Shown piece by piece: positions 45,162 to 57,972 of a stretch of 64,000 bases of DNA. Both the position numbers and the translations under genes were made by a program. The notes below the pieces were generated by a model. It ran no database searches, was not told the DNA's origin, and worked only from the letters and a program-made list of their open reading frames with translations. The DNA comes from Kaistia geumhonensis (GTDB taxonomy: Bacteria > Pseudomonadota > Alphaproteobacteria > Rhizobiales > Kaistiaceae): assembly GCF_030815145.1 (NCBI RefSeq), contig NZ_JAUSWJ010000001.1, forward strand, positions 2,604,001 to 2,668,000, written 5' to 3'. Each line of letters begins with the position of its first letter. Within the stretch, counting starts at the first letter, position 1.

Positions 45162-45237
<76 letters not shown>

Positions 45238-45356: not shown

Positions 45357-45752
45357 TTACGGCTCCTCGTCGTCGACGCCGCCGATGATGTCGGTGACGT
45401 CGTCGCCCTCTTCTTCCTCTTCCTCGATGAAGACGTCGTCCGGCTCGTCCTCGCCGATCACAACATCCTCGTCCTCGCTGTCCGTCTCGACCGCGCCGGC
45501 ATCGCCCGCCTCGGAATCGGCCTCCTCGAGGCTGATGAACTCGGCGGCCTCGGGCGCCTCCTCCTCGTCCTGATCCTCTTCCTCGACGTCACGAGCCGTG
45601 GACGGACGGGCACGGACGGGGCCGGCCTCGAAGAAGGACCGCGGATAGGACTGCCCGGTATAGGGCGAGACGATCGGGTCGCGATTCAGATCGTAGAATT
45701 TCTTCCCCGTCTCGGGGTCGACACGCTTTGTGCCGAGTTCCGGTTTCGCCAC
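45357..45752 (-). CDS. TIGR02300-family protein with FYDLN motif and acidic tail
   Basis: About 131 aa. The N-terminus KPELGTKR...KKFYDLNRDPIVSPYTG is the conserved core of a small alphaproteobacterial family of unknown function (TIGR02300, the FYDLN-acid family). Residues 55-131 are almost wholly Asp/Glu with little order. The GTG at 45752 is preferred over the ATG at 45764 because family members start just before KPELG and ATGAGG then serves as ribosome site. It is divergent from the aroA homologue, as in relatives. Confidence 0.85.
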   Translation of the reverse strand: MAKPELGTKRVDPETGKKFYDLNRDPIVSPYTGQSYPRSFFEAGPVRARPSTARDVEEEDQDEEEAPEAAEFISLEEADSEAGDAGAVETDSEDEDVVIGEDEPDDVFIEEEEEEGDDVTDIIGGVDDEEP

Positions 45753-45953
45753 GTCGTGCCTCATCGGTTGAGCGAGCGGGGTCCCTTAAAGCTTCGGCCC
45801 CGCCCTGTCAAAAGCAAATCATGCATGGAAGGTCTAGAAGCAAGTCCTCGCCGTCGATCCTGCTGGGCCTGAAGCTGGCGGGGTTCCGGCCCCCATGCTA
45901 TCGCACCAGCAGGCGATGCCTCCATCCCGGGGCGCGCATGTGCCGGGGAGCCG

Positions 45954-47351
45954 ATGATCTCGACACCACCCCTTCCGGACCCTGCCGCTCCCGCGCGGCA
46001 CGACGTTGCGAGCCGCGGCGCGCTCGGCAGCCGCCCGTCGGGACCTCTTGCGGGCACGCTGGCGCTGCCCGGCGATCGGGGCGTCGCCAGCCGCGCCCTC
46101 GCGCTCGGCGCCCTCGCCATCGGCGAGACGGTCCTTTCCGGCATCTCGCCGTCCGCCGATCTCGACCCGATGCTTGCCGCGCTGCGCGCTTTCGGCGCCG
46201 AAGCGAGTTACGCCGGCGACGACCGGATCACGGTCCGCGGGCTCGGCGTCGGCGGCCTGCTGGAGCCGGAAGCGGTGATCGATTGCGGCGACCGCGCCGC
46301 GACGGCGGAGTTGCTCCTCGGCCTCGCGGCCGGCCACGGCTTCGCGACGACTTTCACCGGCGGCCGCGCGGGGCGCGCCGAGTCGCTCACAAGGATCATC
46401 GACCCGCTGCGCCGCATGGGCGTCGGCATCATCAGCCGTTCGCGCGACCGCCTGCCGCTCTCCGTGCGCGGTCCCGAAACGCCGCTGCCGGCCGATCTCA
46501 AGCTTTCGGACGCCGCCGCCGAGGCCAAGGCGGCGCTTTTGCTGGCGGCGCTTTCGGCGCCGGGCGTGACCAGCCTCACGGAAGCCGCGACGGCGCCCGA
46601 CGCCATCGAGACGCTGCTGCCGGCCTTCGGCGCGGCGCTCGAGATCGAGGACTCGACGGACGGCGCGCGCACCCTCCGTCTCGAGGGACGGCGCGATCTG
46701 AAGCCGCAGAAGCTCGTCATTCCCGGCGACCCCGTGCTCGCTGCCTTTCCGATGGTCGCCGCCCTCATCGTCGAGGGATCGGCGGTAAGGCTTAGGGGCG
46801 CCGCGATGGGTCGCTCCCGCCTCGCTCTCGTCGAGACGCTGACAGCGATGGGCGCGACGATCACGCTCTCGGACCGGCACATGGCGGCGGGCGAGCCGGT
46901 GGCCGATCTCGTCGTCGCGGCCGGCCCGCTGAAGGCCGTCACCGTCGCGCCCGCCCGCGCCGCCGCTCTGTTCGACGTCCTTCCGGCACTGGCCGTGGCG
47001 GCGGCCTTCGCCGACGGCCGCACCGTCATCGAGGGCCTCGGCGCGCTGCGGCGACGGGCGGGCGATCCGATCGGCGCGCTCGTGACCACCCTCAGGGCCT
47101 GCGGCGTCGCCTGCGAGGAAGGACCGGAATCGCTCGCCATCACCGGCGCCGAACGGATCGCCGGCGGGTCCAGGCTCGCCGCCCCCGGCGATGGCGCCCT
47201 GGCGATGGCGCTTCTGGTGCTCGGCCTTCGCGCGGAAGAGGGCGTGGTGATCGAGGACGCCGGTACCGCGGTCGCCGACTGGCCGGGCTTCGCCGTCGCG
47301 ATGGGCTCGCTCGGAGCCGCCATCGCGTCAACGGACAGTACAGCAGCATGA
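45954..47351 (+). CDS. EPSP synthase (AroA) homologue lacking catalytic and substrate-binding residues
   Basis: 465 aa, colinear with class II AroA (CP4 type, 455 aa) in both domains. AroA makes EPSP from shikimate-3-phosphate and PEP. Aligned by eye to CP4: K28 is R42, S29 is G43, R128 is E143, S173 is A188, Q175 is E190, R200 is P215, K353 is R368, E354 is A369, R357 is P372 and R405 is A415; only R33 (R47) and D326 (D341) remain. The frame is intact, GGGGAG precedes the ATG, and the stop overlaps cmk by ATGA. It fills the usual aroA slot between the FYDLN-acid gene and cmk-rpsA. It cannot be a normal EPSP synthase; a scaffold or regulatory pseudoenzyme is the likeliest reading. Confidence 0.8.
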   Translation: MISTPPLPDPAAPARHDVASRGALGSRPSGPLAGTLALPGDRGVASRALALGALAIGETVLSGISPSADLDPMLAALRAFGAEASYAGDDRITVRGLGVGGLLEPEAVIDCGDRAATAELLLGLAAGHGFATTFTGGRAGRAESLTRIIDPLRRMGVGIISRSRDRLPLSVRGPETPLPADLKLSDAAAEAKAALLLAALSAPGVTSLTEAATAPDAIETLLPAFGAALEIEDSTDGARTLRLEGRRDLKPQKLVIPGDPVLAAFPMVAALIVEGSAVRLRGAAMGRSRLALVETLTAMGATITLSDRHMAAGEPVADLVVAAGPLKAVTVAPARAAALFDVLPALAVAAAFADGRTVIEGLGALRRRAGDPIGALVTTLRACGVACEEGPESLAITGAERIAGGSRLAAPGDGALAMALLVLGLRAEEGVVIEDAGTAVADWPGFAVAMGSLGAAIASTDSTAA

Positions 47352-47992
47352 TCATTGCCATCGACGGACCGGCCGGCGCCGGCAAGGGGACGCTCGCGGC
47401 GCGCCTCGCGGCCCATTACGGCTACCATTATCTCGATACCGGTCTTCTCTATCGCGCGGTCGGCCACCAGATGGCCGAGCGCGGGCTCGATCTCGACGAC
47501 GCCGCGGCGGCGGGTGATGTCGCGCGGGCGCTCGACCCCTCACATCTCGCGGAAGGGGAACTGCGCGGTCGCGAGGCCGGCGAACGCGCCTCGCGCGTCG
47601 CGGTGCACCCCCCGGTGCGGTCGGCGCTCGTCGAGTTCCAGCGCGCCTTCGCCCTTCGAAAGCCCGGCACCGTGCTCGACGGCCGCGACATCGGCACCGC
47701 GATCTGCCCCGATGCCGATGTGAAGCTCTATGTCACCGCCTCGCCCGAGGTGAGGGCCCGGCGGCGGACCGACGAGCTCAACGCCAAGGGGCGCGACGTC
47801 GACTATGAACGCATCCTCGCGGAGATCCGCGAGCGCGACGAGCGCGACGCCGGCCGCGCCTCCGCGCCGCTCCGAAAGGCCGAAGACGCCGTGCTCATCG
47901 ATACCAGCGCGCTCGATATCGACGGCGTGTTCCGCGCCGCCGTCGATATCATCGACGCGAAACGGGGCCAAATCGGCACGAATACGGCCTAA
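47348..47992 (+). CDS. cmk: (d)CMP kinase
   Basis: 214 aa. The P-loop GPAGAGKGT is at residues 7-15 and the DTGLLYRA and DGRDIGT substrate motifs follow at about 30 and 115. It phosphorylates CMP and dCMP in pyrimidine nucleotide recycling. Its ATG overlaps the stop of the aroA homologue (ATGA), so expression is coupled. It precedes rpsA by 234 nt in the standard order. Confidence 0.95.
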   Translation: MIIAIDGPAGAGKGTLAARLAAHYGYHYLDTGLLYRAVGHQMAERGLDLDDAAAAGDVARALDPSHLAEGELRGREAGERASRVAVHPPVRSALVEFQRAFALRKPGTVLDGRDIGTAICPDADVKLYVTASPEVRARRRTDELNAKGRDVDYERILAEIRERDERDAGRASAPLRKAEDAVLIDTSALDIDGVFRAAVDIIDAKRGQIGTNTA

Positions 47993-48019
47993 ATTCGGCT
48001 TCCGAAGGCTGGAATCGGC

Positions 48020-48048
48020 TTGCCGCGGCCAAGGCCACCCTATATAGA
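48020..48048 (+). promoter_or_regulatory. Probable rpsA promoter
   Basis: TTGCCG (48020-48025), a 17-bp spacer and TATAGA (48043-48048), in a locally AT-rich spot, lie about 180 nt before the rpsA ATG. The long GC-rich leader in between is where S1 autoregulation would act. Confidence 0.55.
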
Positions 48049-48226
48049 GCGCGGGTCTGCGAGGCGGTGCGAAAGCGCCGCGCGCGGCCATTTATCATCA
48101 GGTGCCGGTCCGGAAGCGTCGGTCCGCCCCTCACGGGGCCAGCCCGCATTGATGCGTGGCGAGGCCAGTCCCTGATCCCGAAACACGAGCCGCCGGCGCA
48201 TGCCAGTCATGGCACCAGGAGTTTTC

Positions 48227-49924
48227 ATGGCCTCTACCAATCCGTCCCGCGAAGATTTTGCTTCCCTGCTCGAGGAGTCCTTCCAGAAGGAAGACCTGTT
48301 CGAGGGCAGCGTCGTCAAGGGCACCGTCGTCGCGATCGAGAAGGATCTCGCGGTCATCGACGTCGGCCTGAAGACCGAGGGACGTGTCGCCCTCAAGGAA
48401 TTCAACGGCCCCGGCCGCGATCAGCCGATCCAGGTCGGCGACGTCGTCGAGGTCTATCTCGAGCGCGTCGAGAACGCCCTCGGTGAAGCCGTTCTCTCGC
48501 GCGACAAGGCGCGCCGCGAAGAGAGCTGGGTCCGCCTCGAGGAGCAGTTCAACAAGAACGAGAAGGTCACGGGCGTCATCTTCAACCAGGTCAAGGGTGG
48601 CTTCACCGTCGACCTGGACGGCGCCGTCGCCTTCCTGCCGCGTTCGCAGGTCGATATCCGCCCGGTGCGCGACGTCGGCCCGCTGATGCACACGCCGCAG
48701 CCCTTCCAGATCCTCAAGATGGACAAGCGCCGCGGCAACATCGTCGTGTCGCGCCGTACCGTCCTCGAAGAGACCCGCGCCGAGCAGCGTTCGGAGCTGG
48801 TGCAGAGCCTCGAGGAAGGCCAGATCATCGAGGGCGTCGTCAAGAACATCACCGACTACGGTGCGTTCGTCGACCTCGGCGGCATCGACGGCCTCCTGCA
48901 TGTCACCGACATCGCTTGGCGTCGCATCAACCATCCGACCGAGGTGCTCTCGATCGGCCAGACCGTCCGCGTGCAGATCATCCGCGTCAATCACGAGACG
49001 CACCGCATCTCGCTCGGCATGAAGCAGCTCGAGGCCGATCCGTGGTCGGGCATCGAGGCGAAGTATCCGGTCAACGCCAAGTTCTCGGGCCGCGTCACGA
49101 ACATCACCGACTACGGTGCGTTCGTCGAACTGGAACCGGGCATCGAGGGCCTGATCCACGTCTCCGAGATGTCCTGGACGAAGAAGAACGTCCATCCCGG
49201 CAAGATCGTCTCCACCTCTCAGGAAGTCGAAGTCGTCATCCTCGAGGTCGATCCGGTCAAGCGCCGCATCTCGCTCGGCCTCAAGCAGACGCTCGCCAAT
49301 CCGTGGGAGACCTTCTCCGACAAGTATCCGGTCGGCTCGATCGTCGAGGGTGAGGTCAAGAACAAGACCGAGTTCGGTCTGTTCATCGGCCTCGACGGCG
49401 ACGTCGATGGCATGGTCCACCTGTCGGACCTCGACTGGAACCGTCCGGGCGAGCAGGTCATCGACGAGTACAACCGCGGCGACATGGTCAAGGCGCAGGT
49501 GCTCGACGTCGACATCGACAAGGAGCGCATCTCGCTCGGCATCAAGCAGGTCGGCGGCGATCCGTTCGTCGAGGCTTCGGGCGAGATCCGCAAGGGCGCC
49601 GTCGTGACCTGCGAGGTCATCGCGGTGAACGAGGGCGGCATCGAGGTTCGCATCGCGGACTCCGATCTCACCACCTTCATCCGTCGCGCCGATCTGTCGC
49701 GCGACCGTTCGGAGCAGCGCCCCGAGCGCTTCGCTCCCGGCGAGAAGGTCGACGCCCGCGTCACCAACTTCGACAAGAAGGCCCGCAAGGTCTCCGTCTC
49801 CATCAAGGCGCTCGAAATCGCCGAGGAGAAGGAAGCCGTGGCGCAGTTCGGTTCGTCCGACTCGGGCGCTTCGCTCGGCGACATCCTGGGCGCGGCCCTG
49901 AAGGCCCGTCAGAACGACGAGTAA
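48227..49924 (+). CDS. rpsA: 30S ribosomal protein S1
   Basis: 565 aa with six S1 OB-fold repeats; the highly similar middle repeats carry KNITDYGAFV and LHVTDIAW/IHVSEMSW motifs. S1 draws mRNA leaders to the 30S subunit. The ATG at 48227 has AGGAG 6 nt upstream and gives MASTNPSREDF, the usual alphaproteobacterial start; the earlier in-frame ATG at 48200 has no ribosome site. Strong terminator downstream. Confidence 0.96.
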   Translation: MASTNPSREDFASLLEESFQKEDLFEGSVVKGTVVAIEKDLAVIDVGLKTEGRVALKEFNGPGRDQPIQVGDVVEVYLERVENALGEAVLSRDKARREESWVRLEEQFNKNEKVTGVIFNQVKGGFTVDLDGAVAFLPRSQVDIRPVRDVGPLMHTPQPFQILKMDKRRGNIVVSRRTVLEETRAEQRSELVQSLEEGQIIEGVVKNITDYGAFVDLGGIDGLLHVTDIAWRRINHPTEVLSIGQTVRVQIIRVNHETHRISLGMKQLEADPWSGIEAKYPVNAKFSGRVTNITDYGAFVELEPGIEGLIHVSEMSWTKKNVHPGKIVSTSQEVEVVILEVDPVKRRISLGLKQTLANPWETFSDKYPVGSIVEGEVKNKTEFGLFIGLDGDVDGMVHLSDLDWNRPGEQVIDEYNRGDMVKAQVLDVDIDKERISLGIKQVGGDPFVEASGEIRKGAVVTCEVIAVNEGGIEVRIADSDLTTFIRRADLSRDRSEQRPERFAPGEKVDARVTNFDKKARKVSVSIKALEIAEEKEAVAQFGSSDSGASLGDILGAALKARQNDE

Positions 49925-49955
49925 GCCTCCCCGCTTCCTGCGGAAGAAACCTGGA

Positions 49956-49990
49956 ACGCCCCGGCCATCGGCCGGGGCGTTTCGCTTTTC
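49956..49990 (+). terminator. rpsA terminator
   Basis: ACGCCCCGGCC-ATC-GGCCGGGGCGT, an 11-bp perfect stem, is followed by TTCGCTTTTC, 32 nt after the rpsA stop. Confidence 0.88.
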
Positions 49991-50109
49991 AGGCGTCAAA
50001 AAGCCTTTCCCGGCAAAGCCTTGCCGATCGCGCATTTGCGTCGCGGCCACAAAGGGGCTAACTGGACGTCGCAAAATGCGCGACGAGGGACGGGCGGCAG
50101 GAGCGAGAG

Positions 50110-51105
50110 ATGGCCTTGGGAGCGGAAGACATCATCGAGCGGCGGCGCCTGCGGCGTAAGCTCGTCTTCTGGCGCGTGCTGGGCGTCCTCGCCTTCATCG
50201 CCGCCGTCGTCGTCGCGGCCATGCTCGCCGCGGGGCCGGAGCGGCTTGCCGGGCGGGCGATGCCGCACGTAGCGCGCATCTCGATCGACGGCTTCATCAC
50301 CGACGACCGCGAGCAGCTCGAGCTCATCGACCGTCTCGCCAGGAACGATGCGGTGCGCGCCGTCATTGTCTCGATCGATTCCGGCGGCGGCGCCACCGTC
50401 GGCGGCGAGGCGCTCTACGACAAGCTGCGCGCCCTCTCCGCCCGCAAGCCGACCGTCGCCTCGATCAAGACGCTGGGCGCCTCCGCCGCCTATATGGCCG
50501 CCATCGCCACCGATCAGGTCTTCGCCTACCGCTCGTCGATCACCGGCTCGATCGGCGTCCTGTTCCAGTCGCCTGAACTGTCGGAAGCGATGAAGAAGCT
50601 CGGGATCGGCCTCACCGAGGTGAAATCCTCGCCACTCAAGGCCGCGCCCTCGCCCTTCCAGCCGGCCAGCCCGGAATCGCTCGCCGTGATCAAGAGCCTC
50701 ATCGACGACACCTACAACTGGTTCGTCGACATCGTCGCCGAGCGGCGCAAGCTCGACCGGCCGACCGCCGTGACGCTGGCCGACGGGCGCGTCTATTCGG
50801 GCCAGCAGGCCAAGGCCGCCGGCCTCGTCGACGCCATCGGCGGCGAAGACGAGGCGCTCGACTGGCTGGTCAAGGAAAAAGGCATCGACCCGGCCCTCAG
50901 GGTCGTCGAATGGGAGAAGGAGAGCGACCGGCCCGGCCTCTTCTCCGCGGCGGTGTTGCGCGTCTTCGCGCGCCAGCTCGGTCTCGCGCCTGACGCGCTC
51001 GACGGAGCGCTTCTCCCCTCATGGTTGCCCCGGCTGCAGCTTGACGGTCTTCTTTCGGTTTGGCAGGCTCCCTCCGAGGGCGGCGCGGAAGGGGCAGTGC
51101 GATGA
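50110..51105 (+). CDS. sppA: Signal peptide peptidase SppA (short, 36-kDa type)
   Basis: 331 aa inner-membrane serine protease. One membrane anchor at residues 18-42 precedes the peptidase domain. The Ser/Lys dyad is S125 in GASAAYMA and K177 in SSPLKAA, 52 residues apart as in B. subtilis SppA. It degrades leftover signal peptides. Its stop overlaps the ihfB start (ATGA). Note the C-terminal [14 protein letters not shown] region is not needed for catalysis. Confidence 0.9.
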
Positions 51106-51386
51106 TCAAGTCGGAGCTTGTCCAGAGGATTGCCGAGCAGAATCCGCATCTCTACCAGCGCGACGTCGAGCATATCGTGAACTCGATCCTCGACGAGATC
51201 GTCGATGCTCTGGCCCGGGGCGACCGGGTGGAGCTGCGCGGCTTCGGCGCCTTCTCCGTGAAGAACCGGCCCGCGCGGCAGGGACGCAACCCGAGGACGG
51301 GTACCAAGGTTGAGGTCACGGAGAAGTTCGTGCCCTTCTTCAAGACCGGCAAGGAGATGCGCGAGCGTCTCAATCCGGACGAATAG
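51102..51386 (+). CDS. ihfB: Integration host factor subunit beta
   Basis: 94 aa, an HU/IHF-fold protein with the DNA-bending arm around [12 protein letters not shown] (residues 60-75) and its intercalating Pro. With IhfA, encoded elsewhere, it bends DNA at promoters, origins and recombination sites. Starts [10 protein letters not shown], as expected. Confidence 0.95.
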
Positions 51387-51399
51387 GACCCCTCGCCCT

Positions 51400-51747
51400 A
51401 TGAAGCGTGTGATCGCCGCCGTCATCCTCGTCCCGCTCGCCGTCGTCCTCGTGGCGCTGGCGGTGGCCAATCGGCATGGCGTCACCCTGTCGCTCGATCC
51501 CTTCAACGGCGACGCGCCGGCCGCCGCGCTCACGCTGCCGCTCTATGTGCTCGTCTTCGCCGCCCTGCTGGTCGGGGTGGTCATCGGCGGCGTCGGCGCC
51601 TGGTTCGGACAGGGTCGATGGCGTCGCCAGGCGCGCAGCCTGAAGCGCGAGGCGAAGGTGGTGAAGCGGGAGAACGAGGCCTATCGCGCCGCCGCCGCTT
51701 CCTCTCCCGCCGCGACGCTCCCGATCGTCCGACGCGACGCAGCCTGA
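51400..51747 (+). CDS. LapA-domain membrane protein
   Basis: 115 aa with two membrane helices (about 5-24 and 45-68) separated by a short periplasmic loop, then a basic coiled tail (RRQARSLKREAKVVKRENEA). It matches the LapA/YciS (DUF1049) family, implicated in lipopolysaccharide assembly control in E. coli. It follows ihfB by 13 nt, an arrangement found in many Rhizobiales. No clear ribosome site. Confidence 0.8.
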   Translation: MKRVIAAVILVPLAVVLVALAVANRHGVTLSLDPFNGDAPAAALTLPLYVLVFAALLVGVVIGGVGAWFGQGRWRRQARSLKREAKVVKRENEAYRAAAASSPAATLPIVRRDAA

Positions 51748-51808
51748 ACCGGCCCGACCGGACCTGCCGCGGTTGGACTCTCCGCGGCTTTCATGGCAAA
51801 CGAGACCC

Positions 51809-52513
51809 ATGTCCGGTCCTAGATCCACTCCGCCCGTGATCGTGAAGATCTGCGGGATTTCCACGCCCGAGACCCTCGAGGCCTCGCTCGGCGCCGGTGC
51901 CGACATGATCGGCTTCAACTTCTTCCCCAAGAGCCCGCGCGCGGTCTCGCTGGAGGCGGGCAGCGCACTCGCCGGCCGCGTGGCCGGCCGGGCCGAGATC
52001 GTCGCGCTCACCGTCGACATGGGCGATGACGAGATCGCGGCGATCGTCGCGGCCGTCCGGCCCGACTGGTTGCAGCTGCATGGCAAGGAGCCGCCCGAGC
52101 GGGTCGCCGCGTTGCAGGATCGGTTCGGGCTCGGCGTCCTCAAGGCGATCGGCATCCGCGGCCCAGACGACCTCGCCGAGGTGGCCGCCCATGCCGGCGT
52201 CGCCGACCGGCTGCTGCTCGACGCCAAGGCGCCGGCCGGTGCGGCGCTGCCGGGCGGCAACGGGCGCGTCTTCGACTGGTCGCTGCTCGATGGTCTTGAC
52301 CCGGCGCTGCCCTATATGCTGTCCGGAGGGCTCGATGCTGGCAATGTTGCCGAGGCGATCGCGCGTACCGGCACCCGCGGTGTGGACGTCTCGTCGGGTG
52401 TCGAGACCGCGCCGGGCGTCAAGGACGCGGCACTGATCGAAGCTTTCATCGCGGCCGCGCGCAGCGGCGCCGACAGCGTGCCGGCATCGTCCGGCGAGGG
52501 GACCACCACGTGA
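51809..52513 (+). CDS. trpF: Phosphoribosylanthranilate isomerase
   Basis: 234 aa TIM barrel. KICGI (residues 13-17) carries the catalytic Cys and the LLLDAK strand the catalytic Asp. It performs the third step of tryptophan synthesis. The stop overlaps the trpB GTG start. The ATG at 51809 was chosen because the barrel starts immediately after. Confidence 0.95.
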
Positions 52514-53730
52514 CCGCTCCGCAACTGCCCAATTCGTTCCGCACCGGCCCGGATGACCGTGGCCATTTCGGCATCTTCGGTGGGCGCTATGTCGCCGAAA
52601 CGCTGATGCCGCTGATCCTCGAGCTCGAAAAGGCCTATGAGGATGCGAAAGCCGATCCGGCCTTCGCGGCCGAGCTTTCGGCGCTCTCGACCCATTATGC
52701 CGGGCGGCCGTCCAAGCTCTATTTCGCCGAGGGCCTGACCCGCCATCTCGGCGGCGCGCGCATCTTCTTCAAGCGCGAGGACCTCAACCACACCGGCAGC
52801 CACAAGATCAACAACTGCCTCGGCCAGATCCTGCTCGCCCGCCGCATGGGCAAGACGCGCATCATCGCCGAGACGGGCGCCGGCCAGCACGGCGTCGCCT
52901 CGGCGACAGTCTCGGCCCGCTTCGGCTTCCCCTGTGTCGTCTATATGGGCGCGACGGATGTCGAGCGGCAGAAGCCGAACGTCTTCCGCATGAAGCTGCT
53001 CGGCGCCGAGGTGAAGCCCGTCACCGCCGGCAACGGAACGCTCAAGGACGCGATGAACGAGGCGCTCCGCGACTGGGTGACCAATGTCGAGGACACCTAC
53101 TACCTGATCGGCACCGCCGCCGGCCCGCATCCCTATCCCGAGCTCGTGCGCGACTTCCAGTCGGTGATCGGCACCGAGGCGCGGGCGCAGATGCTGGAGC
53201 AGGAGGGACGCCTGCCCGACATGATCATCGCCGCCGTCGGCGGCGGGTCGAACGCCATCGGCCTCTTCCATCCCTTCCTCGACGATGCCTCGGTCGCGAT
53301 CGTGGGCGTCGAGGCCGGCGGCCATGGCCTCGAGGGCGACGAGCACTGCGCCTCGATGAATGCCGGCCGGCCGGGCGTGCTGCACGGCAACCGCACCTAT
53401 CTTCTGCAGGACGCGGACGGCCAGATCCTCGAGGGCCACTCGATCTCGGCCGGGCTCGATTATCCCGGCGTCGGCCCGGAGCATTCCTGGCTGCGCGACA
53501 CCGGCCGGGTCGACTATGTGCCGATCCTCGACGACGAGGCGCTCGACGCTTTCCAGGTCTGCACCCGCACCGAGGGCATCATCCCGGCGCTCGAATCCGC
53601 GCATGCCATCGCCGAGGCGATCAAGCGCGCGCCGACCATGGACCGCGACGCGATCATCCTCGTCAACCTCTCCGGACGCGGCGACAAGGACATCCACACG
53701 GTCGGCAAGCTGACGGGCCTGGAACTCTGA
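52510..53730 (+). CDS. trpB: Tryptophan synthase beta chain
   Basis: 406 aa from a GTG that overlaps the trpF stop. PLP is held by Lys99 in HTGSHKINN; the GGGSNA phosphate loop is near residue 245. It joins indole with serine as an alpha2beta2 complex with TrpA. Confidence 0.97.
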
Positions 53731-53809
53731 GCCCCACCCGCCGCAGCCTGCATCCTCCGATCGCCGCCGCCGCGCGCGTGCGGGCGCCATTCTTCGAGTG
53801 AGACGACCC

Positions 53810-54652
53810 ATGAGCAACACCCGCATCGACCGCCGCTTCGCTGCCGTCAAGGCCGAGGGCCGGCCGGCGCTCGTCACCTTCTTCACGGCCGGCGATCCCG
53901 ACCAGGCGACGACGCTGTCGATCCTCAAGGCGCTGCCCGGCGCCGGCGCCGACGTCATCGAGCTGGGCATGCCGTTCTCGGACCCGATGGCCGACGGTCC
54001 GGCGATCCAGGCGGCGGGGCTCAGGGCGCTGAAGGGCGGCCAGACCATGGCGAAGACGCTCGAGATTGTGCGCCTTTTCCGCCAGATCGACGACGAGACC
54101 CCGATCGTGCTGATGGGCTACTACAACCCCATCTATGCACGCGGATCGGAAGCCTTCGTCGCGGAGGCCAAGGAGGCCGGGGTCGACGGCCTCATCATCG
54201 TCGACCTGCCGCCGGAGGCCGACGACGAGCTCTGCATTCCCGCGCTGAAGGCGGGCCTCAATTTCATTCGCCTCGCGACCCCGACGACCGATGACCGCCG
54301 CCTGCCGGCGGTGCTCGCCAACACCTCGGGCTTCGTCTATTACGTCTCGATCAACGGCATCACCGGCTCGGCGGCGCCGGACAACTCGCGCGTTGCCGAG
54401 GCGGTCGGCCGCATCAAGCGGCATACCGACCTGCCGGTCGCGGTCGGCTTCGGCGTCCGTACGGCGGAGCAGGCGGCGGCGATCGGCGCGAATGCCGACG
54501 GTGTCGTGGTGGGTTCGGCGATCGTGCAGGCGATCGCGGCCTCGCTCGACGAAGGCGGCAAGGCGACGGAGGGCACGGTGTCCGCGGTCGTCGCGCTGGT
54601 CTCGCAGCTCGCCGAGGGCGTCCGCGCCGCCCGCAGCCTCAGCGCCGCGTGA
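53810..54652 (+). CDS. trpA: Tryptophan synthase alpha chain
   Basis: 280 aa TIM barrel releasing indole from indole-3-glycerol phosphate. The catalytic pair is E51 in [11 protein letters not shown] and D62 in MADGP, matching E. coli E49/D60. It lies 79 nt after trpB; the ATG at 53810 is preferred to an earlier in-frame one at 53798. Confidence 0.97.
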
Positions 54653-54680
54653 GCGCCGGCAAGCAAGGAGTGTTCTTCAG

Positions 54681-55571
<891 letters not shown>

Positions 55572-55648
55572 GGAGCGCGAACAGCACACCGGCGCATTCC
55601 GGGCCGCGGCCTGCGGCCCGCCGAGACCTGCCCGAAGGACTTTCGACC

Positions 55649-56968
55649 ATGGACTACAGCGCCGCGATCCTCGAGCGGCTGTTCCGCCTGCATCCGAAGG
55701 ATATCGACCTCTCGCTGGAGCGGCTGCTGCCCCTCCTCGAGAAGCTCGGCCATCCCGAGAGGAAGCTCGGCACCGTCTTCCACATCGCCGGCACCAACGG
55801 CAAGGGATCGACGACCGCCTTCCTGCGCGCCATGCTGGAGGCGAGCGGGCGGACCGTCCATGTCTACACCTCGCCGCATCTCGTCAGCTTCCACGAGCGC
55901 ATCCGGCTCGGCCGCCCCGGCGGCGGCCAGCATGTGAGCGAGGACGAGCTGGTGGCGACGCTGACCGATGTCGAGCGGCTGAACGACGGCGCGCCCATCA
56001 CCCAGTTCGAGATCACCACCGCGGCCGCCTTCGCTCTGTTCGCCGCGCATCCCGCCGATGTGACGCTGCTCGAGGTGGGGCTCGGCGGGCGCTATGACGC
56101 GACGAATGTCATCGACGCACCCGACGTTTCGGTGATCACGTCGATTTCCATGGATCACGAGCGCTTCCTCGGCGACCGCATCGAGATGATCGCCGGCGAG
56201 AAGGCGGGGATCATCAAGCGCGGACGGCCCGTCGTCGTGGCGCCGCAGACTTCCGAAGTGCTGGCGGTAATCGAGCGCGAGTCCGAGCGGAAGCGCGCGC
56301 CGCTCTTCGTCGGCAACCGCGACTGGATCGCCCATGCCGAACGCGGCCGGCTGGTCTTCCAGGACGAGCACGGCCTCGTCGACCTGCCGGCGCCGCGCCT
56401 GCCCGGCCGCCACCAGTTCGTCAATGCCGGCAATGCGGTAGCGGCGCTCCGCCATTCCTCGCTTTCCGTGCCGCAATCGGCGATCGAGGCGGGACTGTCG
56501 GGCGTCGACTGGCCGGCCCGCATGCAACGCCTCTCGACCGGCGCCCTTCTGGCGCTGGCGCCGCCCGAGGCCGAACTCTGGCTCGACGGGGGCCACAATC
56601 CCGGTGCCGGCGCGGTCATCGCCGAGGCGGTGGCCGATCTCGAGGAGCGGTTGCCCCGCCCGCTCTATCTCGTTGCCGGCATGCTCCAGACCAAGGATCC
56701 GGTCGGCTTCTTCCGACCGTTCGCGGGTCTCGCCGCGCATGTCTTCACGGTGCCCATCGCGAGTTCGTCGGCCGGCCGGGACCCGCGCGAGCTTGCCGAG
56801 GCGGCGCGCGAGGCCGGTCTCGAGGCGGAGGCGACGAGCGACGTGCCGGCGGCGCTCGCCGCCCTTGGCCGCATGCTGCCGCCCGGCACCGTTCCGCGCA
56901 TCCTCATCTGCGGCTCGCTCTATCTCGCCGGCGACGTCCTCGACCTCAACGGAACGCCGCCGCGCTGA
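55649..56968 (+). CDS. folC: Bifunctional folylpolyglutamate/dihydrofolate synthase
   Basis: 439 aa Mur-ligase-like protein with P-loop GTNGKGST (residues 51-58) and the LEVGLGGRYDATNV segment. It adds glutamates to folates and makes dihydrofolate. GAAGGA precedes the ATG. It ends 29 nt before the acyltransferase. Confidence 0.95.
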   Translation: MDYSAAILERLFRLHPKDIDLSLERLLPLLEKLGHPERKLGTVFHIAGTNGKGSTTAFLRAMLEASGRTVHVYTSPHLVSFHERIRLGRPGGGQHVSEDELVATLTDVERLNDGAPITQFEITTAAAFALFAAHPADVTLLEVGLGGRYDATNVIDAPDVSVITSISMDHERFLGDRIEMIAGEKAGIIKRGRPVVVAPQTSEVLAVIERESERKRAPLFVGNRDWIAHAERGRLVFQDEHGLVDLPAPRLPGRHQFVNAGNAVAALRHSSLSVPQSAIEAGLSGVDWPARMQRLSTGALLALAPPEAELWLDGGHNPGAGAVIAEAVADLEERLPRPLYLVAGMLQTKDPVGFFRPFAGLAAHVFTVPIASSSAGRDPRELAEAAREAGLEAEATSDVPAALAALGRMLPPGTVPRILICGSLYLAGDVLDLNGTPPR

Positions 56969-56997
56969 GCCAGCCCGATCGCGTCAGGGGAGCGACG

Positions 56998-57972
56998 ATG
57001 ATGCGCGAGGCCCAAAGACGGCACATCGCATCGCTGGATATCCTCCGCGTCGGGTCGATGCTCTACATCGTCGGCTTCTGGCATCTGATGAACTATGCCG
57101 TGGCAGGCGGCTTCTATCGCAACGAAGTGACGACCCGCGTCACCGTCGTGCTGCTCGCGACCTTCACCATGCTGTCGGGCTATCTCCTCGGATTGCGACC
57201 GGTCGAGCCGACACGCGCCTCGATCGCCAGCTTCTACCGGCGGCGGATGCTGCGCATCTATCCGCCGCTGGTCCTGGCCGTGCTCTGCTTCGTCCTCATG
57301 GGCCTGACAACCTGGCCAACGGCGATCCGCACCATGTTGCTGGTCGGCGAGATCGTCGGCCCGCCGCCGCTGACGCTCTGGTATGTGGCGATGCTGGCGC
57401 TGTTCTACCTGATCACGCCACTGCTCTCCGTCGGATCGTCGGCCGCGCGGCGCGCCCTCGTCGCGGTCGCTGTCATGCTGCTGCTCGCGGCGCTGTCGGG
57501 CTGGGGCGGCCTTGCGACGGATCCGCGGATCGCCCTCTATTTTCCGAGCTTCGCGATCGGCCTCGCGGTCGCCCGCGAACCGCTCCCGCCGCGATGGATG
57601 CTGTTCGCATCGGCGGCGCTGGGGCTTGCCTCGATTGTCCTGACGCTCGGCCAACCCGTTCCGGCGATCGAACGTACGCTCCTGTCCGCGCCCATGGCGA
57701 CCCTGCTGGCGCTGGCACTGCTCCTTCTCGCGCTTTCCCTCGCGAATCGGGTCCCGCCATCGCCCGTCCTCGCGGCACTCGGCACGGCCAGCTTCTTCAT
57801 GTATCTGCTGCACCGCCCCATCTACCAGGCGCTGGCGCAGCATATCCCTTTCACCGGCCCCGTGGCGCGGACCGCCATTCTGGTCCTGGTCGCCCTGCCG
57901 ATCGTCGCGGCCACCAGTTGGACGGCCCAGAAGGCCTATGACGCCCTTCTGGCCCGGTTGACGCTCGCCTGA
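56998..57972 (+). CDS. Acyltransferase family 3 membrane protein
   Basis: 324 aa with about ten membrane helices. It starts ASLDILRVGSMLYIVGFWHLMNY, split as ASLDILRVGSML and the following helix, whose HLM position and the RRMLRIYPPLV motif mark the acyltransferase_3 fold that O-acetylates surface sugars. It is last in the trp-acc-fol run and 29 nt from folC, with AGGGGAG upstream. The acceptor is unknown. Confidence 0.82.
   Translation: MMREAQRRHIASLDILRVGSMLYIVGFWHLMNYAVAGGFYRNEVTTRVTVVLLATFTMLSGYLLGLRPVEPTRASIASFYRRRMLRIYPPLVLAVLCFVLMGLTTWPTAIRTMLLVGEIVGPPPLTLWYVAMLALFYLITPLLSVGSSAARRALVAVAVMLLLAALSGWGGLATDPRIALYFPSFAIGLAVAREPLPPRWMLFASAALGLASIVLTLGQPVPAIERTLLSAPMATLLALALLLLALSLANRVPPSPVLAALGTASFFMYLLHRPIYQALAQHIPFTGPVARTAILVLVALPIVAATSWTAQKAYDALLARLTLA

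Follow-up and report, generated by a model that had tools for sequence, protein, structure and literature searches.

A displaced class II AroA in the aroA slot of Kaistia geumhonensis is under weakened but real protein-level selection

The analyzed window is a 64,000-nucleotide stretch of Kaistia geumhonensis DNA (contig NZ_JAUSWJ010000001.1, positions 2,604,001 to 2,668,000), which is part of a single 4.59 Mb contig in a genome that is 100% complete. An open reading frame (ORF) at positions 45954-47351 of the window begins with ATG and is followed by cmk and then by rpsA, in the same slot before cmk that intact class II relatives occupy. The genes and motifs of this locus are as follows:

45162..45237, minus strand: tRNA-Ala (GGC), upstream of the aroA slot
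45357..45764, minus strand: TIGR02300 gene, the upstream flank of the aroA slot
45954..47351, plus strand: degenerate class II AroA (putative EPSP synthase pseudoenzyme), 465 aa, assigned by PF00275, the match to CP4 EPSPS and the predicted fold
46068..46094, plus strand: PGDRGVASR at the former KS..R motif (PGDKSISHR in intact relatives)
46284..46310, plus strand: CGDRAATAE at the former GNAGTG loop
47046..47069, plus strand: LRRRAGDP at the former LRVKESDR motif (K353R, E354A, R357P)
47348..47351, plus strand: ATGA, the 4-base overlap of the putative pseudoenzyme's stop with the cmk start
47348..47992, plus strand: cmk, (d)CMP kinase, scoring above the TIGR00017 cut-off
48200..49924, plus strand: rpsA, ribosomal protein S1, with six S1 domains

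The product of the ORF, hereafter the window AroA, matches Pfam EPSP_synthase (PF00275) over residues 28-447 (profile positions 3-414 of 417, E=2.5e-63), and its closest solved relative is the class II EPSP synthase of Agrobacterium, CP4 EPSPS (PDB 2gg4, 2gg6, 2ggd; E=8.2e-91 to 2gg4 over residues 16-465). It is similar to CP4 EPSPS in length and two-domain fold, but differs from it by 11 of 15 scored active-site residues and by a score of 243.0 bits against NCBIfam aroA TIGR01356, which is below the cut-off of 287.25 (for comparison, two intact relatives score 422 and 427). An AlphaFold2 model computed from a 30-sequence alignment (pLDDT 87.9, pTM 0.86) has liganded CP4 EPSPS as its best solved match (TM 0.89/0.93, with 40% identity in the fold match), and the two-domain EPSPS fold is, by this prediction, retained.

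In CP4 numbering, the replacements are K28R, S29G, R128E, S173A, Q175E, R200P, K353R, E354A, R357P, H404G and R405A; only four of the 15 catalytic and substrate-binding positions expected in a functional AroA are kept (R33, A174, K177 and D326), and N98D and T101A are further changes. We take the roles of the scored residues, and their assignment to the PEP side or the S3P side, to be those known from structural work on CP4. A preliminary description of this DNA had named ten of these replacements and the loss of the GN-GT phosphate loop, and all of them are present in the CP4 alignment, with CGDRAATAE in place of GNAGTG; its statement that only R33 and D326 remain was correct as to these two residues and overlooked A174 and K177. 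Such a loss of catalytic residues that homologues keep is what is expected of a pseudoenzyme, and indeed the class II copies from other genera of the family are intact at 15/15 positions in all 14 cases.

The loss extends beyond the active site. An alignment of 72 intact sequences has 120 columns with a conservation of at least 97%; at these, the window AroA keeps 31/35 Gly/Pro, 19/33 hydrophobic/Ala/Cys, 17/37 other polar and 4/15 active-site residues, so that the active-site loss exceeds the loss across the remaining conserved columns (p=0.01) but is not significantly greater than that across the other conserved polar columns (p=0.23). The corresponding copy in a second Kaistia genome (G011) shares 47 of the 49 invariant-residue losses, 42 of them with an identical residue, and keeps its frame; sequencing or assembly error as a source of the losses is therefore rejected. 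We infer from the residues themselves that the window AroA probably lacks EPSP synthase activity.

The complete genome contains three PF00275 genes, namely MurA, the ORF at 45954-47351 and a second AroA at C1:4524732-4526036 (L002), in which every scored catalytic position is intact and which scores 358 bits against the TIGR01356 cut-off of 287. Its nearest solved structures are the Vibrio, E. coli and plant enzymes, which we take to be class I, hence its designation here as class I AroA. Thus, the second intact aroA that the preliminary description had proposed to look for does exist, and the window AroA is ruled out as the sole AroA of the genome. The two proteins share PF00275, but the class I enzyme has an intact site, another locus (folE-hisI), a score above the aroA cut-off and a dN/dS of 0.031. 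EPSP synthesis is presumably now carried by this enzyme.

An EPSP synthase that is still active with a divergent site, or one whose motifs are shifted in the alignment, appears extremely improbable. R33, K177 and D326 are kept and the overall predicted fold is intact, but E354, R357, R405 and R128 are all lost and the genome also has a complete class I AroA. E354 is described as important for catalysis (PMC3371024). Merely shifted motifs, which the preliminary description had named as an outcome that would overturn its reading, are excluded by an end-to-end alignment without gaps in the motifs and by the superposition of the predicted fold on CP4.

Of the 11 Kaistia loci examined (L134-L144), six, including that of the window genome, have the class I aroA flanked by folE and hisI; the other five have neither of these genes within their 1.5 kb flanks. 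In relatives without class I AroA, folE and hisI are adjacent with no aroA between them in 9/10 cases (the tenth has no hisI nearby), an arrangement that resembles an empty site and suggests that the class I aroA was gained there. The five Kaistia loci lacking folE and hisI in their flanks point in turn either to a relocation of the gene within Kaistia or to more than one entry.

To follow the distribution of the two classes, we searched 14 Kaistia genomes (among them K. soli, K. adipata, K. granuli, K. hirudinis, K. dalseonensis, K. terrae and K. defluvii) and, for comparison, the genomes of 14 family members from other genera. Class I AroA was found in all 14 Kaistia genomes (as a partial gene in the fragmented G008) and in none of the 14 genomes of other genera at E<=1e-20. 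A class II copy was found in 13/14 Kaistia genomes, the exception being G008 (720 contigs), and none of these 13 copies contains a stop codon. They form a graded series, in which three copies have all 15 positions intact, eight are partly changed (three with Q175R only, three with E354A and H404P, G012 with three changes and K. soli with five) and two, those of the window species and G011, are apparently dead with 11 changes each. The pocket of this dead pair is identical between the two species at 13/15 positions.

In the class II gene tree, the dead pair falls inside Kaistia, beside K. soli and G012. Horizontal replacement of the gene in the slot is thus unsupported, and the window AroA is a product of vertical descent. 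Two genomes that group with Kaistia (loci L054 and L055) are filed publicly as a MAG 'Bosea sp.' SCN18 and as 'Mesorhizobium sp. BR1-1-16'; they match G011 and G012. Named class II loci were retrieved with two conserved peptides as bait and the best 80 of 115 were kept, a procedure that favours conserved copies. Of these 80, 71 are intact, and the remaining nine are seven Kaistia copies, Devosia limi and L120, in which the frame is disrupted ahead of the last scored positions.

The dead pair permits an estimate of selection after the loss of the active site since all 11 losses are common to both species and their divergence most likely followed the losses. The two proteins are 83% identical, and the differences between their genes are distributed over the codon positions as 45/45/131. 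Maximum-likelihood dN/dS is 0.115-0.120 at a dS of about 0.8, and values of about 0.085-0.165 fit; dN/dS = 1 is rejected (2dlnL 165-170), as is the value of class I AroA, 0.031 (2dlnL 54). The NG86 method gives 0.27-0.29. The dN/dS comparison that had been proposed as a check thus reveals purifying selection at the amino-acid level on a degenerate copy (about 0.12), as expected of a pseudoenzyme after loss of catalysis, and neither mark of a pseudogene is seen, the window AroA having no stop or frameshift and a dN/dS far from 1. The suggestion that selection preserves something other than catalysis is borne out to the extent that, with an intact second AroA in the genome, the copy is, or was until recently, selected.

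A comparison of the 36 window ORFs with G011 (four without a match, ten with stops in the match and 22 scored) places this value in context. Besides the window AroA, the scored set comprises 18 credible genes with dN/dS of 0.011-0.085 and three probably spurious ORFs with 0.37-2.25, so that the dead-pair AroA has the highest dN/dS of the 19 credible genes, about four times that of the working AroA; selection is therefore relaxed. Overall, the constraint on the window AroA is real yet clearly relaxed. Constraint at the DNA level was considered as a source of the pattern and rejected, as the dead-pair dS of 0.78 is no outlier beside the other 18 credible genes, which span 0.13-1.24. In an out-of-frame control, dN/dS exceeds 1.9 in four of the five wrong frames; one antisense frame gives 0.157, which is no control because the wobble position is shared. 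The earlier argument from the lack of a frameshift fares less well: the frame is indeed open, but in neutral simulations no stop arose in 24-30% of runs with third-position base frequencies (0-0.2% with even frequencies), so that, in a GC-rich genome, an open frame alone is weak evidence of selection and it is the substitution pattern that carries the case.

Rates of change along the class II tree are high on the stem of the dead pair (1.08 changes per column) compared with its tips (0.13-0.14). In a simpler model restricted to 13 Kaistia genomes, the class II copy evolved at about 12 times the class I rate on this stem (0.87, summed over the drawn root, vs. 0.071) and at about six times at the dead-pair tips (0.24 vs. 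0.038). A burst on the stem relative to the tips is only suggestive, and the yardstick matters: measured against Cmk, the dead pair evolves no faster than other close pairs (A/K 1.95), but it does so when measured against class I AroA (A/S 6.1).

A parallel case is found in Devosia. Class I AroA is present in all 75 genomes of this group, and a class II copy is kept in 32 and absent from 43 (three further weak matches fall on class I genes). None of the 30 Devosia class II copies that were tabulated is intact, 2 to 14 of the 15 positions being changed, and 28 of the 30 loci have no stop; L197 has one near its end, and L220 has two and a broken frame. Pairs of strongly degenerate Devosia copies have dN/dS of 0.115-0.159, far from 1, although some of their losses may postdate the divergence of the compared pair. 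The Devosia copies stand apart from those of Kaistia in the tree, hence the change happened separately. D. enhydra, which lies outside the 75-genome group, has only two PF00275 genes, MurA and an intact class II AroA.

A subset of 13 of the 30 Devosia copies (L197, L199-L204, L208, L211-L214 and L217) keeps all seven scored PEP-side residues (K28, R128, Q175, D326, E354, R357 and R405), together with A174E/D and K353Q in 13/13, S29A in 12/13 and a changed R200 in 10/13; dN/dS is 0.05-0.14 in fitted pairs of dS <2.5. Judging from this residue pattern, these copies look like enolpyruvyl transferases whose acceptor substrate is new.

In an order-wide sample of 397 genomes, 40 have class I AroA at E<=1e-40, of which 11 are Kaistia. 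The other 29, with D. limi added, form a set of 30 non-Kaistia genomes. Of these, one (G403) has an intact class II copy in the slot, four have a changed copy and G291 has a broken one; three members of a single genus retain just the N-terminal half, and in the remaining 21 no class II slot copy was found. In 20 cmk loci from these 21 genomes, no AroA remnant is present before cmk, and weak 61-residue matches to CP4 in four of the 20 fall inside cmk itself. The half-length copies (L226-L228 in G145, G173 and G219 of genus g58) lie before cmk with about 245 aa matched and have dN/dS of 0.18-0.24. All three of these species were found with class I AroA; two further g58 species have intact class II copies and are absent from the listed class I matches. 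The copy in G291 (L171, family f2) is a true pseudogene, internally deleted and broken in its 3' part, and class I AroA is present in the same genome.

The proximity of these copies to cmk brings up the possibility of a translated leader, in which translation of the ORF opens or sets cmk-rpsA translation and what the product does is of no consequence. All 13 Kaistia class II copies overlap cmk, the copy ends within 4 bases of cmk in 21/30 Devosia loci and, where the genes overlap, the putative ribosome-binding bases of cmk sit within the 3' end of the ORF. However, only 3/14 other-genus relatives, all of them intact, show the overlap. Thus, it is a trait of the genus and not of the whole family; the coupling claimed in the preliminary description stands for the ATGA overlap itself but does not extend across the family. 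Predicted Shine-Dalgarno strength before cmk in Devosia is equal whether a degenerate copy is present (mean -5.7, n=15) or the slot is empty (-5.8, n=8). Together with the lack of a remnant in the 20 copy-less loci, where cmk is nonetheless present, this makes an obligatory role in cmk/rpsA regulation unlikely, including the proposed regulation of their expression by the AroA fold, and leaves coupling as a strict requirement unsupported. With selection also acting on amino acids, beyond the mere open frame, we regard a leader as quite improbable.

Similarly small is the chance that the window AroA is a neofunctionalised enzyme whose pocket binds or transforms another ligand. The near-identity of the dead-pair pocket (13/15) would fit such a function, as would the identity of lost invariant sites in 42/49 cases vs. 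254/327 at variable sites, and the Devosia copies that keep the PEP side with a uniformly changed S3P side (13/30) make a substrate change possible in the family. This identity excess is small, however, and in the window AroA both the PEP side (K28R, R128E, Q175E, E354A, R357P, R405A) and the S3P side (S29G, S173A, R200P, K353R) are gone.

The main rival, because loss is frequent, is a slowly decaying passenger, that is, a redundant gene with no positive function from which residual selection removes only misfolding or toxic variants. Relaxed dN/dS at about four times the value of the working AroA, the graded decay across Kaistia copies, the absence or truncation of the class II copy in many lineages, the rate excess over class I AroA on the stem (about 12-fold) and at the tips (about 6-fold), and frame survival that is unsurprising at such GC content all agree with a passenger. 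Against it, dN/dS remains at about 0.085-0.165 after the loss of the site, degenerate Devosia pairs have similar values (with the reservation that some losses are maybe younger than the pair split), and no stop is found in the 13 Kaistia copies and 28 of the 30 Devosia loci. On balance we consider a passenger possible but rather unlikely.

What can be stated firmly is that the window AroA is a displaced AroA under weakened but real protein-level selection. Beyond this, a fold-dependent non-catalytic role is our best single guess and the most likely mechanism: probably, the window AroA is a folded, catalytically dead and selection-protected class II protein, displaced by the class I enzyme, that would act via surface contacts and not by catalysis. 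The Kaistia lineage would have gained class I AroA, which took over EPSP synthesis, and the ancestral class II AroA, still in its slot before cmk-rpsA, would then have lost its active site step by step. On this reading the product in the window species and in G011 would be folded and catalytically dead, with its sequence still under selection, and this folded protein, translated in step with Cmk, may work by contacting Cmk, or some other partner, with its surface; selection on the class II copy would be weak enough for its loss in other lineages. Cmk is the leading candidate for such a contact because AroA-Cmk fusions exist as a family (NCBIfam NF008816). The AroA unit is linked to Cmk in these bifunctional proteins, but in the window the genes are separate with a 4-base overlap, the AroA part is degenerate, and the score is 75 bits vs. 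a cut-off of 943. A broader version, to which we give only a tentative place as unlikely, holds that the non-catalytic role of class II AroA at cmk-rpsA predates the loss of catalysis and was unmasked by the acquisition of a class I AroA, separately in Kaistia and Devosia, the fold having been kept as a pseudoenzyme, in step with Cmk, at least twice.

Textbooks treat AroA as an enzyme with a single function, and it is the target of glyphosate. Pseudoenzymes in general (pseudokinases, pseudo-receivers) resemble the window AroA in keeping the enzyme fold, losing catalytic residues and remaining under selection, but no AroA/EPSPS case is among the literature found: a search with most subscription journals outside its scope returned no EPSPS or AroA pseudoenzyme, no displaced AroA and nothing on the aroA-cmk locus in Kaistia or Devosia. 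In Kaistia, the copies in this one constant genomic position grade naturally from intact, by way of partly changed, to apparently dead; a likely cause of the series, the second AroA, can be seen, and another genus shows a parallel. The window copy is one stage in a graded, repeated process that follows the gain of a second AroA. A hidden non-catalytic role of an essential metabolic enzyme thereby becomes directly testable, and the series also bears on the speed of active-site loss in a redundant enzyme whose fold is kept. For annotation, the name "AroA" for the gene in the canonical slot would be misleading in genomes with a displaced copy.

As a minor observation, dS between the window and G011 is uneven among neighbours along positions 45357-57972, being 0.13 for the TIGR02300 gene and rpsA, about 0.8-0.9 for the degenerate aroA and cmk, and 1.24 for the ORF at 56998, a pattern that could stem from codon bias or local recombination.
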